Source of the DNA: an uncultured Geobacteraceae bacterium
GTDB lineage: Bacteria > Desulfobacterota > Desulfuromonadia > Geobacterales > CAIOGM01
DNA: 49,610 bases
Assembly: GCA_903902345.1 (NCBI GenBank)
Contig: CAIUUR010000337.1
Coordinates: 1 to 49,610, forward strand
Reading direction: 5' to 3'
Part shown: positions 4,440-10,200 of the stretch, piece after piece
Layout of the letters: each line of letters opens with the position of its first letter
Numbering within the stretch: position 1 is the first letter of the stretch
The notes under the pieces: generated by a model
Databases searched by the model: none
What the model was told of the DNA's origin: nothing
What the model saw: only the letters and a program-made list of their open reading frames with translations
Translations under genes and position numbers: made by a program

Positions 4440-6104
4440 ATGACAACAACGTATCCCCCTCGATCGACAATTCTCATCGTCGATGACGACCCGACAGTCA
4501 TCAAGATACTTCTTAATATACTGGAAGACGACTACGAACTGCAGCAGGCGACCTCGGGACAACAGGCCCTCTCCCTGCTGACAGAGGAGAAAAAACCGGA
4601 TTTGATCCTGCTGGATGTGATGATGCCGCTCATGAGCGGGTACGAACTCTACGCCGCACTTAAACATGACGCCACCACGAGCACTATTCCGGTGATCTTT
4701 ATCACCGGAAAAGCGGATACCGAGAGCGAAACGGAGGCCTTGGCCGCCGGCGCCGTGGATTTCATCCACAAACCGATCAACAGGGAGGTGCTCCTTGCCC
4801 GCCTCAGAAACCATTTGGAAACGGAACTCCGGATGAAGGCGTTGCATCGCGCCAATTCGGAACTGACGGAATGGAACGGCAATCTCAAGAATCGGGTCCT
4901 GCAGCAGACGGCGCTGGTCCGTCAAAAAATCGAGGAGGCAAACCAGCTGAATGCCCGCAACCGTCAAAACAGTGAGGAGGACGAGGGTCGGATTGCTACT
5001 TCGTCGGCGAGATCCGGTGAGACTCAGGTAGAGAAACCGCTCTCCATTCTCTGCGTAGATGACGAGGAATTTGTAATCAAGGCGCTAATACGCCTCTTCC
5101 ATAAAGAACCTTTCACCGTACTGACGGCCACTTCGGGAGCGGCGGCTCTGACCATCCTGAAGAATAACGACAATATCGGGGTGATCCTCTCCGATCACCG
5201 GATGCCGGAGATGACCGGTGTGGAATTTCTTCATGCCGCGGCCACCGTCGCCCCTGATTCGTGCCGAATGATTCTCACCGGCTATGCGGATATGAACAAC
5301 GTCATCGAGGCCATCAACAATGGAGGGGCAGTCTGTTTCATGACCAAACCGTGGAATGATGACGAATTGCTGGACTCCGTACGGGACGGACTGCTGCGGT
5401 TCGAGGCGGTGCGGAAGGATCGTCGGGAAAAGGGATATCTGGCGGAACGAAACAGCAACCTCAAGAACCGACTCCTCCAGCAAACGGCTCTGGTCCGGCA
5501 AAAAGTCGAAGAGGCGCAAAGACAGAACGCCATCAAACCGAAGTGCCGTGAAGACATCGTCTTTTTTCTGGCCGACCTGCTGGAACGGCGCCATCGTCGG
5601 CTCAGCGCACATTCCCGCACCGTGGCGGACCTGGCGGCGGCGCTCGCGAGACAACTGGCGCTCACGCCGTCCCAGGAAGAGGAAATAAGTCAGGCGGGGC
5701 TGCTTCATGATGTAGGATTGATTGGAGTATCCGATCGTCTACTTATCAACAACATGGAATTTTTAAGCGGCACCGACATGGCCGAGTACCGCTCTCACCC
5801 CGTCAGAGGGCAGGAGATCGTTGACACCTTCGAAGAACTGCAGGGTATCGGACTCCTCATCCGTCACCATCACGAAGCGTTTGACGGCAGCGGCTTCCCC
5901 GACGGTCTGGCGGGAAGTGAGATCTCCCTGGGAGGGCAGATAATCCACCTGGCCAGTTTTATCGAGAGCAACTACGCCCAGTTGACCGGAGACGACGCCA
6001 AATACAGAGTGAGCAAAAAGGTGGTCGCCGGCATGGGAACCCTCTTCGACCCGGCACTCGCAGTCGCGGCAAACCAGGCGATGATGGAAGTCCTGACCGA
6101 TTAA
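4440..6104 (+). CDS. Response regulator with two REC domains and an HD-GYP-like domain (554 aa)
   Basis: Cytoplasmic regulator: REC1 at about 9-125 (acceptor Asp59), coiled linker, REC2 at about 201-320 (Asp252), a second linker, then an HD-GYP domain at about 370-550. HD-GYP enzymes hydrolyse cyclic di-GMP. HD is at 423-424, His453 and the HHHE motif at 476-479 are present, and GYP reads GFP. However, the Lys of HDxGK is Leu427 and the late metal-ligand Asp of the usual ARI..AD motif is Ser506 (HLASFIES), so catalysis may be weak or lost. Both linkers carry near-identical segments (LKNRVLQQTALVRQK at 149-163, LKNRLLQQTALVRQK at 341-355), suggesting an internal REC-linker duplication. A close relative lies at 17068-18192. 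Confidence 0.92.
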   Translation: MTTTYPPRSTILIVDDDPTVIKILLNILEDDYELQQATSGQQALSLLTEEKKPDLILLDVMMPLMSGYELYAALKHDATTSTIPVIFITGKADTESETEALAAGAVDFIHKPINREVLLARLRNHLETELRMKALHRANSELTEWNGNLKNRVLQQTALVRQKIEEANQLNARNRQNSEEDEGRIATSSARSGETQVEKPLSILCVDDEEFVIKALIRLFHKEPFTVLTATSGAAALTILKNNDNIGVILSDHRMPEMTGVEFLHAAATVAPDSCRMILTGYADMNNVIEAINNGGAVCFMTKPWNDDELLDSVRDGLLRFEAVRKDRREKGYLAERNSNLKNRLLQQTALVRQKVEEAQRQNAIKPKCREDIVFFLADLLERRHRRLSAHSRTVADLAAALARQLALTPSQEEEISQAGLLHDVGLIGVSDRLLINNMEFLSGTDMAEYRSHPVRGQEIVDTFEELQGIGLLIRHHHEAFDGSGFPDGLAGSEISLGGQIIHLASFIESNYAQLTGDDAKYRVSKKVVAGMGTLFDPALAVAANQAMMEVLTD

Positions 6105-7561
6105 TGTTCCGCCGCCGGCGATGGGGGCGAAAAGGGAAGGAGATTCCTGCAGGAGGGATAACCGGAACAGACCCAGAATTTTCTCCCGACGTTTCCCCCC
6201 CTGGTGACGGTCCCGACTCTCATCTTTTTACCGCAGTGGACGCATTCCGGGACCCCGGCTACGGCCGCTCCTTTTCCCGTCACCGGAGGGGACGCAACCG
6301 GCGCCGGAACTCCTTTTCCCGCCATCCCGGCCAGGAGTTGGTCAACGGCCATGATCACCCGTTTTTCCACGGCAGAGGCGACAGTTTCTCCCAACGAATC
6401 AGTGACTTCCCCCCATGCCACCTTGGCGACGGCACTTCCCACGGCGTCACCACTCCCCTCTCCGCGGGGGGGCAAGGGGGACAAATGCACGGACCGTTCC
6501 ACCTCGGGAGCAACGGCGCCCACTCCTATCATGGCAGGCACCACGTCAGGACTCTTCTCTTTGCTTTTATCACTTTTTTCCTGACTTTTTTGCCTGCTCC
6601 GTTGAACCCTGGTTTCCACAGAGGAGGAATACTTCAGCTCCTGCAAGAACCACCGGACTCCATAGAAGAGCAACGTAAAAATAGCCAGGACCACAAGGAA
6701 CAACCCCGCCCAAAACGCCCCCAACTCCCCGGGCGTTCCTTCGGAGGAGGATAGTGGGGAGCGGACAACGTTCGGCGCCCTCCCGGAGGGGTTCCCGGTG
6801 GAGGATCCCGAAGGGTGACGTTCCCGATAGCCGGTTTGGGCATTTTTGAGGACAAAATCGTACGTATCCTCATTTACAAGAAACTTCTCGGCAAAGGTGT
6901 CCATCCTCATCCCCTGGACTCTGGCGGAGAGGAGATACGCATCGTTAAGTACCGCCACCACCGAACTTCCGGCCTCTCTGGCGTCCGGATCGGAGGCAAA
7001 GAGTTTTTCCACCGCCATCTGAAAATCGCGAAAACTGACCCTGGTGAACTCGGAATCGGTCCCCTTTTCTTTATTCACCACCCCCGCGATGGAATTGAAT
7101 CCGGAGATGCATTCAAACTTTCGTTCAGCCATGTAATACGTTTTGCGGGAACGCTTTCCCCCAAGGGTAAAAACATCGGTGATTCTTGTCACCTTCAGAT
7201 CTTGAGCAAAGGAGGCCATCAGATGATCGGGTAGGGGAACGGAGCCATTCTTTCCGTCATACTTGGCGCCGGGATATTTCTCCGCCAATTTGCCGCTGAT
7301 GTAGGCGACATGGGCGGAGTCGTTATCGGGAAAGGAGAGTGTCGCCTGATGGTCCAGAATCGCCACCGTGGACTGAACTTCCTGAGCGAGCTTTTCCAAC
7401 TCGTTCCAATAGTCGACGGTACGTTTGAAACCATCCACGGAGAGCGGCGGTGAGGGAGTGCCGGCCGCCGCGGGTTCCAGGGGAGAAGCAGCCCAGGAGT
7501 ATACGGGCTGCGCCGTCAGGAGAAACAGAATCAGGAGAATTTTCAATGCCGAGCAGACCAT
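6101..7561 (-). CDS. Membrane protein with C-terminal topoisomerase-type zinc ribbon (486 aa)
   Basis: Not recognised as a named family overall. Visible parts: a signal peptide at 1-25 ending near YSWAAS; a probable periplasmic domain of about 260 residues; one transmembrane helix at about 288-310 (FWAGLFLVVLAIFTLLFYG); a basic, Lys/Ser-rich cytoplasmic stretch; and a C-terminal zinc ribbon with CVHCGKKM and VCSGYPSCRN, the C4 finger type found at the end of bacterial topoisomerase I. The layout implies outside sensing with a cytoplasmic nucleic-acid or protein-binding finger. It starts 4 bases after the Nramp gene, so the two are probably coupled. Its 3' end overlaps the convergent HD-GYP gene by 4 bases. 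A low-complexity segment (HLSPLPPRGEGSG) looks like a translated intergenic repeat. Confidence 0.7.
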   Translation of the reverse strand: MVCSALKILLILFLLTAQPVYSWAASPLEPAAAGTPSPPLSVDGFKRTVDYWNELEKLAQEVQSTVAILDHQATLSFPDNDSAHVAYISGKLAEKYPGAKYDGKNGSVPLPDHLMASFAQDLKVTRITDVFTLGGKRSRKTYYMAERKFECISGFNSIAGVVNKEKGTDSEFTRVSFRDFQMAVEKLFASDPDAREAGSSVVAVLNDAYLLSARVQGMRMDTFAEKFLVNEDTYDFVLKNAQTGYRERHPSGSSTGNPSGRAPNVVRSPLSSSEGTPGELGAFWAGLFLVVLAIFTLLFYGVRWFLQELKYSSSVETRVQRSRQKSQEKSDKSKEKSPDVVPAMIGVGAVAPEVERSVHLSPLPPRGEGSGDAVGSAVAKVAWGEVTDSLGETVASAVEKRVIMAVDQLLAGMAGKGVPAPVASPPVTGKGAAVAGVPECVHCGKKMRVGTVTRGGNVGRKFWVCSGYPSCRNLLPFSPPSPAAEH

Positions 7562-7565
7562 TTGT

Positions 7566-8795
7566 TTACCCTTTTGGTCCTACCAGGGTCGCCAGCAGCA
7601 TCATGTTAAGAGCTATGACGATGGCGGCAACGAGCCAGAGGGCAATCTTTTCCGGCAGAGGGTTGGCGTAGCGTCCCATGACCTTTTCCGAGGAGGTGAG
7701 CGCGATCTGGGTCACGATGGTGACGGGAAGTTGTATGCTCAGAAGCATCTGGGAGATGATAAGCCCCCGGAACGGATCACCGATGGTGAAGATGAGCAAC
7801 GTGGCGACCACGATCGTCAGGCTGGAACCGATCATGGTGTACCGGTCACGAATGTCGTATTCGCGACCGAAGATCCCGGCGAAGATGCTCCCGCCTGCCA
7901 TGCCGGCGGTAATGCTGGAGGATAGACCGGCGAAAAGGAGCGCCACGCCGAAGATGAGTGCGGCCCCATCCCCCACCAGAGGGCGGAGCATCTGCTGGGC
8001 CTGTCCCAGTTCATCCACCCTGGCGCCATGACGGTAAAAAGTGGCTGCGGCCAGAATGATCATGGCGCTGTTGATGGCCCACCCCACCAGCATGGAGCTG
8101 CCGGTATCCAGGATCTCGTAGTTGAGCTGACGCCGGATGATGACGTCGTCCTCCCGGTTCCACTGGCGACTCTGGATAATCTCCGAGTGGAGGAAGAGGT
8201 TGTGGGGCATCACCACCGCGCCGAGGACACTCATGATGATCAGCATGGAATCGTGGGGGAAAACCGGCGTTACCCACCCCGCAACGGCCTGGTTCCACGC
8301 CACCGGCATGAGATTAAGCTCATAAAGAAACGAGAGCCCAATAATGGAGACGAAACCGATGATGAGCTTCTCGATGCGGCGGTAGGCGTTGGTGAAGAGA
8401 AGGAGGAGCGCCGTCACCGCCATGATGAACGAGCCGACCATGATTGGAATATGAAACAGGAGATCCAGGGCAATGGCCCCACCCAGGACCTCTGCCAGAG
8501 CCGTGGCAATGGCGGCCAGTACTGCGGTGGTAAGAACCGGCAGGGAGACGATCTTGGGGAGATGAGCGGTGGCGGCCTCGGAAAGACAGAGCCCGGTGGC
8601 GATCCCCAGATGCGCGGCATTGTGTTGCAGGAGGACCAGCATCAGGGTGGAGAGGGTAATCATCCAGAGGAGTGAATAGCCGTAGGTCGATCCGGCTGCC
8701 ACGTTGGAGGCCCAGTTCCCGGGATCGATGAAGCCGACGGTGACCAGAAGGCCGGGACCGAGGTACCTGAAAATGTTCCTGATGCGTCGGATCAT
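7566..8795 (-). CDS. Nramp-family divalent metal ion transporter (409 aa)
   Basis: Inner-membrane proton-coupled importer of Mn2+/Fe2+ type. The two diagnostic metal-site motifs are present: DPGNW at about residues 25-29 in TM1 and VVMPHNLFLHS in TM6. About eleven hydrophobic helices can be counted, and the length (409) fits MntH/Nramp proteins. The start ATG at 8795 follows GAGGGTAGG. It sits downstream of the oxidase operon and the lipoprotein gene, and 4 bases before the zinc-ribbon membrane protein. No MntR or Fur site was identified. Substrate cannot be fixed from sequence; Mn or Fe is most likely for a protein with the Met-bearing MPHN motif. Confidence 0.9.
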   Translation of the reverse strand: MIRRIRNIFRYLGPGLLVTVGFIDPGNWASNVAAGSTYGYSLLWMITLSTLMLVLLQHNAAHLGIATGLCLSEAATAHLPKIVSLPVLTTAVLAAIATALAEVLGGAIALDLLFHIPIMVGSFIMAVTALLLLFTNAYRRIEKLIIGFVSIIGLSFLYELNLMPVAWNQAVAGWVTPVFPHDSMLIIMSVLGAVVMPHNLFLHSEIIQSRQWNREDDVIIRRQLNYEILDTGSSMLVGWAINSAMIILAAATFYRHGARVDELGQAQQMLRPLVGDGAALIFGVALLFAGLSSSITAGMAGGSIFAGIFGREYDIRDRYTMIGSSLTIVVATLLIFTIGDPFRGLIISQMLLSIQLPVTIVTQIALTSSEKVMGRYANPLPEKIALWLVAAIVIALNMMLLATLVGPKG

Positions 8796-8842: not shown

Positions 8843-9346
8843 CTAGTTCCGATCATTGGCCGGATCATTGAGGAGATACTTCCGTAATGAATTCGTCAGG
8901 GAGTCAAAGTTATTCCTGGCGCCGATCAGGTCGGCGTGGAGAACGACAGAGTTTCGCCCCGGGGAGTAGTAGGTGACAGGATTGTACGTGGTCGGCGTCA
9001 CCACCGAAAGAAGCTCGAAGGAGAGAGTCAGGGACTCCTCGGAGACCGTCTCCCGGGCAATAAAGGTCAGCTCATCGGTTCCGGTGAGGTTGGCGGCGGA
9101 AAAGGGGCGTACCATTCTGCCGTAGCAGTGGATGTTCCCGTTTGCACGGTCGGAAACGGGAGCGGTGGCGCTGTCGGCCACGTACAGTCTCAGCCACTCA
9201 AGGGAGCGGTCAAAAATCTGGGCCCGGGGTATCCCGTCCAGATGAATCGTACGCTCATACAACCGTTCATGTTTCATGAGAGGAGTGGTGGACGCACAGC
9301 CACAGATCACAACAAGGGTAGCAATGACTATCATCCGTATTACCAT
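8843..9346 (-). CDS. Lipoprotein, DUF4468-like (167 aa)
   Basis: Small envelope lipoprotein. The N-terminus MVIRMIVIATLVVICGCAST is a type II signal with lipidated Cys17. The mature part starts with YERTIHLDGIPRAQIFDRSLEWL and contains GNIHCYGRM, a pattern resembling DUF4468 proteins (TBP-like fold, unknown function); this family call is from memory and moderate. I chose the ATG at 9346 because GGGGAG lies about 5 bases upstream and the lipobox then falls at the right distance; a longer frame upstream lies inside ctaB. It lies 32 bases after ctaB and 47 bases before the Nramp gene, so it probably shares their transcript. Confidence 0.72.
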   Translation of the reverse strand: MVIRMIVIATLVVICGCASTTPLMKHERLYERTIHLDGIPRAQIFDRSLEWLRLYVADSATAPVSDRANGNIHCYGRMVRPFSAANLTGTDELTFIARETVSEESLTLSFELLSVVTPTTYNPVTYYSPGRNSVVLHADLIGARNNFDSLTNSLRKYLLNDPANDRN

Positions 9347-9378
9347 AAGAGCTCCCCGCCCCGATCCGATTCCAACTG

Positions 9379-10200
9379 TCAGAATGTCTGGAATAGCAGG
9401 ATCAGGGTCATCAGTACCGGAAAAAAGTTGAGATATGAAAAAAAAGCCGCTTCGCACAAAAATCCGGAAACCAGGAGCAGCGGAAGGGAAACCAGCAGAT
9501 ACCAGAGGGCAACCTTCGGGCCCACAACACCCAGAGCCGGCAGGAGCATGACGGCGGCGACCAGGGCGAGCCCCCAACTCCGGAAACAGTTATTGAAAAT
9601 GCTCCCTCCTCCCACGGGAAAAAGCGGAATCCCGGCTCTCCGGTAGTCCTCGCCATGGCGGCGCTGGAGAAGGAAGAAGTGCGGAATCTGCCAGAGATAG
9701 AGGAGACCGGCCAGGAGTATGATCCGGAAATCGGCAGGATTTCCCCCGGCGACGCACCAGCCGATGACCGGGGGGATCGCCCCGGAGACGGCCCCCAGAG
9801 GGAGGGCGAAGGGGGTCCGACGTTTGAGGGGGGTATAGAGCCCCAGATACCAGATCGTGGCGCCTCCCCCCAGCAGCGGAGGGAGGAACCCGCCGGGCAG
9901 GGAGAGAAGCAGCAATCCCGCCAGAATGAGGATGGCGCCGATGGTCGCCACGGCAACCGGCGTAAGATCCCCCCTGGGGAGAGGACGTCGGCAGGTGCGG
10001 GTCATAAGGAGATCCAGGTCCCGCTCCAGCAGCTGATTGAGAGCCGAGCACCCAGCGGCGAGAAGCGTCACCCCGGCAACCAAGGGCGCCAATAACGCCA
10101 ACTCCGGAGGCGCCGGGAGGAGGAGATACCCCCCCGCCGCGGCGATGCCGTTCACCAGCGCCAGCCGCGGACGAAACAGCCGGGGGAGGATCCGTATCAC
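9379..10200 (-). CDS. ctaB: Protohaem IX farnesyltransferase (273 aa)
   Basis: UbiA-superfamily membrane prenyltransferase that makes haem O for the oxidase. The first prenyl-diphosphate motif NQLLERDLDLLMTRT (NxxxD type) is followed by CRRPLPRG, both typical of CtaB/CyoE, and YTPLKRRTPFALPLGAVSGAIPPVIGW is the central conserved block. Further blocks are LLYLWQIPHFFLL and RRAGIPLFPV. Several transmembrane helices cover the rest. The start codon GTG at 10200 overlaps the coxB stop (GTGA), so the gene is translationally coupled to coxB. No ctaA (haem A synthase) is visible, so whether haem O or A is used cannot be decided here. Confidence 0.94.
   Translation of the reverse strand: MIRILPRLFRPRLALVNGIAAAGGYLLLPAPPELALLAPLVAGVTLLAAGCSALNQLLERDLDLLMTRTCRRPLPRGDLTPVAVATIGAILILAGLLLLSLPGGFLPPLLGGGATIWYLGLYTPLKRRTPFALPLGAVSGAIPPVIGWCVAGGNPADFRIILLAGLLYLWQIPHFFLLQRRHGEDYRRAGIPLFPVGGGSIFNNCFRSWGLALVAAVMLLPALGVVGPKVALWYLLVSLPLLLVSGFLCEAAFFSYLNFFPVLMTLILLFQTF

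Follow-up and report, generated by a model that had tools for sequence, protein, structure and literature searches.

Regulators of the ToxR/CadC type place a winged helix at their N terminus in the cytoplasm, followed by one transmembrane (TM) helix and an exported domain. In domain D5 of E. coli topoisomerase I (EcTopI), according to one section of PMC4678816, residues F616 and Y622 stack on the bases of single-stranded DNA; section 7 of PMC9369019 puts the stacking residues "two residues" from the third cysteine, and the numbering F616-C619-Y622 itself gives a spacing of -3/+3 around that cysteine. A membrane-bound PD-(D/E)XK family, COG4741, has been proposed in a passage of PMC1189080 to guard against foreign DNA. 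Among the papers listed by literature searches on membrane Mrr/ribbon proteins, none concerns the exported-domain family described here, which does not prove that none exists.

The window analyzed here, a 49,610-nucleotide stretch of DNA from an uncultured Geobacteraceae bacterium, encodes on its minus strand (6101..7561) a protein of 486 residues with an ATG start that brings an exported domain, a TM helix, and a zinc ribbon together in one chain. The gene belongs to a small family whose fuller members also carry an Mrr-like domain, which the window copy seems to have dropped.

Anatomy and predicted topology

The 486-codon frame is intact and reads, all on the minus strand, as a predicted signal peptide (residues ~1-25, 7487..7561; from hydropathy, with the cleavage site placed by eye), an exported domain (residues ~36-250, 6812..7456; from a structure model and the family alignment A1), one TM helix (residues 280-302, 6656..6724; from hydropathy), a basic linker, and a C-terminal C4 zinc ribbon (residues 438-480, 6122..6250). 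Behind the TM helix lie the approximate site of the missing Mrr_cat domain (6527..6586), placed by alignment with the syntenic orthologue L044, where the domain spans ~125 residues, and a short remnant of an Ala/Val repeat (residues 368-415, 6317..6460), also placed by alignment, with the period taken from full-length relatives. The sequence-only reading had described a secreted, single-pass protein, and the signal-like segment and single helix agree with this; of its 260-residue periplasmic domain, the existence of an exported domain without a database match stands, and the size shrinks to ~210 folded residues plus a linker in the structure model. The linker stretch SPLPPRGEG was considered as an inserted interspersed repeat and dropped, as a search of its own genome found no second copy.

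The 25-residue flanks of the TM helix carry a net charge of 0 outside and +4 inside, and the C-terminal flank is the more positive one in 20 of the 23 family members (equal in 1). Two short relatives from another genus, L078 and L079, begin with a signal-like segment and stop once the exported domain is complete, with no TM segment, which supports export of this domain. Because the inner flank is more positive and these short relatives appear secreted, the ribbon of the window protein is predicted to lie on the cytoplasmic side, as had been proposed. The genes of these short relatives (L078:1105-2064 and L079:1429-2184) stand between GspE/PilB-like ATPase and PheA-like genes, named by eye.

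The exported domain was modeled with a pLDDT of 81.9 and a pTM of 0.70 from 11 rows, giving two helices, seven strands, and then further helices. Sequence searches of Pfam, NCBIfam, and PDB assigned it to no family, no Pfam match to any of the 23 members falls below E 0.025, and the model has no Foldseek match in PDB at E <= 0.001. Its best VIA match is the LC8 dynein light chain, with a Z of 5.7 over only 56 residues; this match, together with OspA mutants and the minor pilin PilX (Z 4.6), was short and middling and was set aside. The single cysteine of the domain, Cys151, is conserved in all 11 rows of types A and B (defined below) and absent from all 12 of type C.

The cysteines of the ribbon (440, 443, 465, and 471) form a CX2C...CX5C pattern, and F462 and Y468, at -3/+3 from the third cysteine, align with the stacking F616 and Y622 of EcTopI. 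All four cysteines and both aromatics are invariant in the six family ribbons. The residue beside the stacking Phe is Trp in four family ribbons, that of the window protein among them, and Arg in the two syntenic relatives. In Pfam, Zn_ribbon_Top1 (PF01396) matches the window protein at E 8.7e-4 and 19.5 bits, below the curated gathering cut-off of 32. When the profile of the six family ribbons is compared with that of eight others, taken from proteins of different genera in the order, the probability is nevertheless 99.6%, so that the resemblance is not due to chance. By this profile comparison the window ribbon is homologous to Zn_ribbon_Top1 without qualifying as a Pfam member, and the earlier call of a topoisomerase-type C4 ribbon holds. 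Between the window gene and L044, the exported domain has a dN/dS (NG86) of ~0.16 and the ribbon one of ~0.21, values that are rough given a dS of ~1.0-1.2, near or above 1; both regions look to be under constraint.

A family with interchangeable tails

When the exported domain was sought elsewhere, as the sequence-only reading had suggested, a profile built from the 23 members of alignment A1 detected it in 6 of the 141 genomes searched within the order: all four that belong to the genus, plus two from a different genus. The window's own genome holds four further relatives. In a sample of the phylum, the domain occurs in 2 of 395 genomes, both already known, and one pattern scan across the GTDB contigs hit 10 loci, every one of them in three MAGs of uncultured bacteria labeled Desulfuromonadales or Geobacter; one such scan of viral contigs found no relative. 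The family is nearly confined to one genus and is paralogous within it.

A tree of the 23 rows resolves three groups that differ in their tails, each with starred support. Type A (8 rows) has an Mrr-like domain and/or a ribbon, the full form running from the TM helix through an Mrr-type endonuclease-like domain and a repeat to the ribbon. Type B (3 rows) ends in a Ser/Arg-rich, basic tail, and type C (12 rows) in an unrecognized compact domain with Lys/Arg-rich ends in some members; a model of the type-C tail reached a pLDDT of 58, too poor for a structure search. The three type-B tails (L010, L050, and L051) are ~80 residues long with a pI of 11.7-11.9 and resemble eukaryotic RS tails. Tail pI exceeds 8.5 in 17 of the 23 members, in line with nucleic-acid binding. 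Four of the eight tails of type A, however, have a low overall pI of 4.7-5.1, and this acidity does not favor general DNA binding.

The ribbon is found in four type-A rows (the window protein, L044, L045, and L047), and in three rows the contig stops before the gene does (L046, L009, and L048). The remaining one, L049, is a complete Mrr-type member that reaches its stop codon without a ribbon. The sequence-only reading had counted homologues lacking the ribbon as evidence against itself, and such homologues are present: 15 of the 23 members have other tails, and L049 has no ribbon at all. The ribbon is thus a tail of one subfamily, whereas the family as a whole is not built around it. The G001 assembly, which encodes type-A proteins, contains no such ribbon at E <= 0.01; the ribbon is thus dispensable in one species.

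Several other features of the family were seen along the way. Ala/Val repeats with a hydropathy period of four/eight residues rather than that of heptads, some extending over hundreds of residues, occur in L045:2674-6288, L046, L009, L048, and L062; they stand after the Mrr-like domain and, where the ribbon is seen, before it, and several contigs end within them. Contigs C66 and C567 may, as a guess, be two halves of one gene, both carrying repeats at their ends and agreeing (by eye) with the neighbors of relatives; no exact overlap of their ends was found. Two tandem type-C members at L052:4147-7189 overlap by 2 bases as stop-to-stop frames. One type-C member is nearly identical in two genomes (L055 in G003 and L056 in G001; L070/L071), with one tail difference seen, and other family members of these two genomes are far more diverged; this near-identity reflects either a transfer in the recent past or MAG contigs assigned to the wrong bin.

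Degeneration and loss of the Mrr-like domain

Mrr_cat (PF04471) follows the TM helix in all four type-A relatives with this region that were scanned (E 5.9e-9, 2.2e-10, 6.9e-12, and 1.7e-12), and two more copies are known from alignment alone, making six copies for comparison. L047, scanned along with them, has no Mrr_cat match, and the window protein has none either. The QxK active-site motif reads NYG, NYK, NYK, NYN, QYR, and QYC in the six family copies; two Mrr/ribbon proteins from outside the family, L027 and L029, have an intact QCK. With its motif degraded in this way, the Mrr-like domain probably lacks nuclease activity in most of the relatives.

The order of genes around the window copy, with CheW-CheA-HD-GYP on one side of the gene and Nramp-orf-UbiA-Cox on the other, is matched gene by gene in contig C77 of the sister species G002. 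There the corresponding gene, L044, encodes 630 residues and retains the Mrr domain, which the window copy thus seems to have lost. In a third species (G003:C38), the syntenic gene, which stands beside CheA/CheW, lacks the Mrr domain and keeps the ribbon. The tree groups the window protein with Mrr-bearing L044 (95/93) and leaves L047, which has no Mrr domain, outside. Because the window gene groups with that of G002 and not with that of G003, the absence of the domain in the window and in G003 would reflect either two losses or one loss followed by a regain. The linker is poorly conserved: in the 80 codons that follow the exported domain, the window gene and L044 share 45% identity.

In this order, membrane proteins often carry a topoisomerase-type ribbon: the ribbon search gave 26 loci outside the genus, and 17 of the 22 that were read show TM-like peaks. 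Pfam assigns Mrr_cat to 8 of these 22, rhomboid to 6, 23S_rRNA_IVP to 3, DUF2726 to 2, and NERD to 1. The rhomboid-type membrane proteins with such ribbons (L026, L033, L035, L037, L039, and L040) come from other genera, and some have TPR matches. No stand-alone protein like L027 was found in a search of the genus, which suggests that its Mrr/ribbon module is the version fused to the exported domain.

Candidate functions and comparison with known systems

The domain anatomy is well supported, and the synteny, the domain loss, and the conservation of the ribbon with its stacking aromatics are directly observed; the cytoplasmic side of the tail and the function, including zinc binding, nucleic-acid binding by the ribbon, and signaling across the membrane, are what we infer. 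We tentatively favor a membrane-anchored nucleic-acid-binding arm, or tether, derived from an envelope-fused Mrr/ribbon protein by loss of the degraded Mrr-like domain, a reading that we hold at a little under an even chance. The product would be a bitopic inner-membrane protein with its exported domain outside and one TM helix, and inside a flexible linker of basic and repeat segments ending in the ribbon, a putative binder of single-stranded DNA or RNA. Its ancestor would have been a longer protein with the Mrr-type domain between TM helix and ribbon, as still found at the sister-species locus; the catalytic motif would have been lost, as in the copies compared, before the domain disappeared from the window copy. 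Given both of these losses, holding rather than cutting is the most likely activity. In the envelope, the exported domain would fix or gate the protein, leaving its tail to capture nucleic acid near the membrane, either tethering the nucleoid or transcripts or making contact with entering DNA. The link from envelope to nucleic acids put forward in the sequence-only reading is a reasonable one for a protein with a topoisomerase-type ribbon, a TM helix, and an exported domain. Against a tether stand the sub-cut-off Pfam score, the Arg in place of Trp in the two syntenic ribbons, the roughness of the dN/dS values, the acidity of four type-A tails, and the missing ribbon of G001; ribbons of the topoisomerase type can, moreover, serve protein contacts instead.

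On this last account, which we consider unlikely yet the most serious rival, the tail would dock on a cytoplasmic partner such as RNA polymerase and the protein would act as an envelope scaffold. According to the abstract of PMC4678816, C-terminal domains of topoisomerase I interact with RNA polymerase, and similar ribbons end membrane proteins with very different enzymes, such as rhomboid proteases, for which nucleic acid is not an obvious target; the invariance of both base-stacking aromatics and the nuclease-type domains among ribbon-bearing relatives speak for nucleic acid. An improbable alternative is a restriction protein of the Mrr type, anchored in the membrane, where it would encounter incoming DNA from phages or plasmids. 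The presence of Mrr_cat in the family, the proposal made for COG4741, and PADLOC, which weakly matches the Mrr region of L065 with ZorD (5.6e-5), point this way, but the window copy has no nuclease-like domain and its best PADLOC match is at E 0.044, the QxK motif is absent from the other copies, the locus is syntenic amid housekeeping genes with no recognized defense neighbors, and the viral contig scan gave no relative. We give a similarly small chance to a type-A gene decaying after the loss of its functional domain: the Mrr-like domain is gone (as in L047), the repeat is shortened, and the linker has diverged, yet the frame is open throughout, every ribbon ligand is retained, and the dN/dS values above do not suggest decay.

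The remaining candidate, put forward in the sequence-only reading because of the neighboring Nramp gene, is that the protein senses metal or zinc on behalf of that transporter. The Nramp-family gene (7566..8795, minus strand) lies directly upstream, as the sequence-only reading observed, on the same strand with a 4-base gap, and immediately precedes the family gene in G002 too. On the other side, a convergent response regulator/HD-GYP gene (4440..6104, plus strand) overlaps the end of the coding sequence by 4 bases. An ORF between Nramp and UbiA (8843-9577), with a sub-threshold DUF4468 match, is kept in G002. All four genomes of the genus have a close Nramp orthologue, but it was seen beside a family gene in only two (the window genome and G002); in G001 and G003 the orthologue (83-87% identity) is on contigs other than those of any family gene found, although these contigs are short enough that a distant linkage could exist. 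Other family members examined have mixed, mostly housekeeping, unrelated neighbors (identified by eye), and the exported domain offers one Cys and no recognized metal-ligand cluster among its 10 invariant positions. Since the Nramp linkage is not conserved, we reject metal sensing as very improbable.

Returning to the tether, a broader interpretation, which we consider unlikely, is that the whole family is receptor-like: a single type of exported domain would be combined with tails that bind nucleic acid and are exchanged between members (a degenerate Mrr domain with a ribbon; Ser/Arg-rich and basic; compact, with Lys/Arg-rich ends in some), forming a one-protein link between envelope and DNA or RNA, of which the window protein would be a stripped-down, ribbon-only form. 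If the tails do bind nucleic acid, the lineage would possess a toolkit of its own with which DNA or RNA is fastened to the inner membrane and a periplasmic domain exerts control, and loss of a degraded nuclease-like domain would be a route from restriction-type protein to tether. As a frequent ending of membrane proteins in this order, the topoisomerase-type ribbon merits testing as a group.

Among known systems, membrane-anchored Mrr_cat plus Zn_ribbon_Top1 proteins from elsewhere in the order, such as L027 and L029, share the order of membrane segment, Mrr-type domain, and C4 ribbon, with ribbon profiles matching at 99.6%. They have two N-terminal hydrophobic segments, no exported domain, and the intact QCK; in the window protein, a signal peptide and the exported domain come first and the Mrr domain is missing. 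The COG4741 proteins resemble the relatives of the window gene in being membrane-anchored with a cytosolic restriction-endonuclease-type domain, but belong to another endonuclease subfamily (YraN-like), and the sections of PMC1189080 describing them mention neither an exported domain nor a ribbon. The C-terminal ribbon of topoisomerase I (Topo_C_ZnRpt, PF01396) has the same four cysteines and two stacking aromatics as the window ribbon, which differs in being a single copy on a membrane protein with no topoisomerase domain, in its longer stretch between the cysteine pairs, and in its sub-cut-off score. Like regulators of the ToxR/CadC type, the window protein would join an exported domain and a nucleic-acid-binding domain through one TM helix, but in reversed order and opposite orientation, and with a zinc ribbon as the inner domain.
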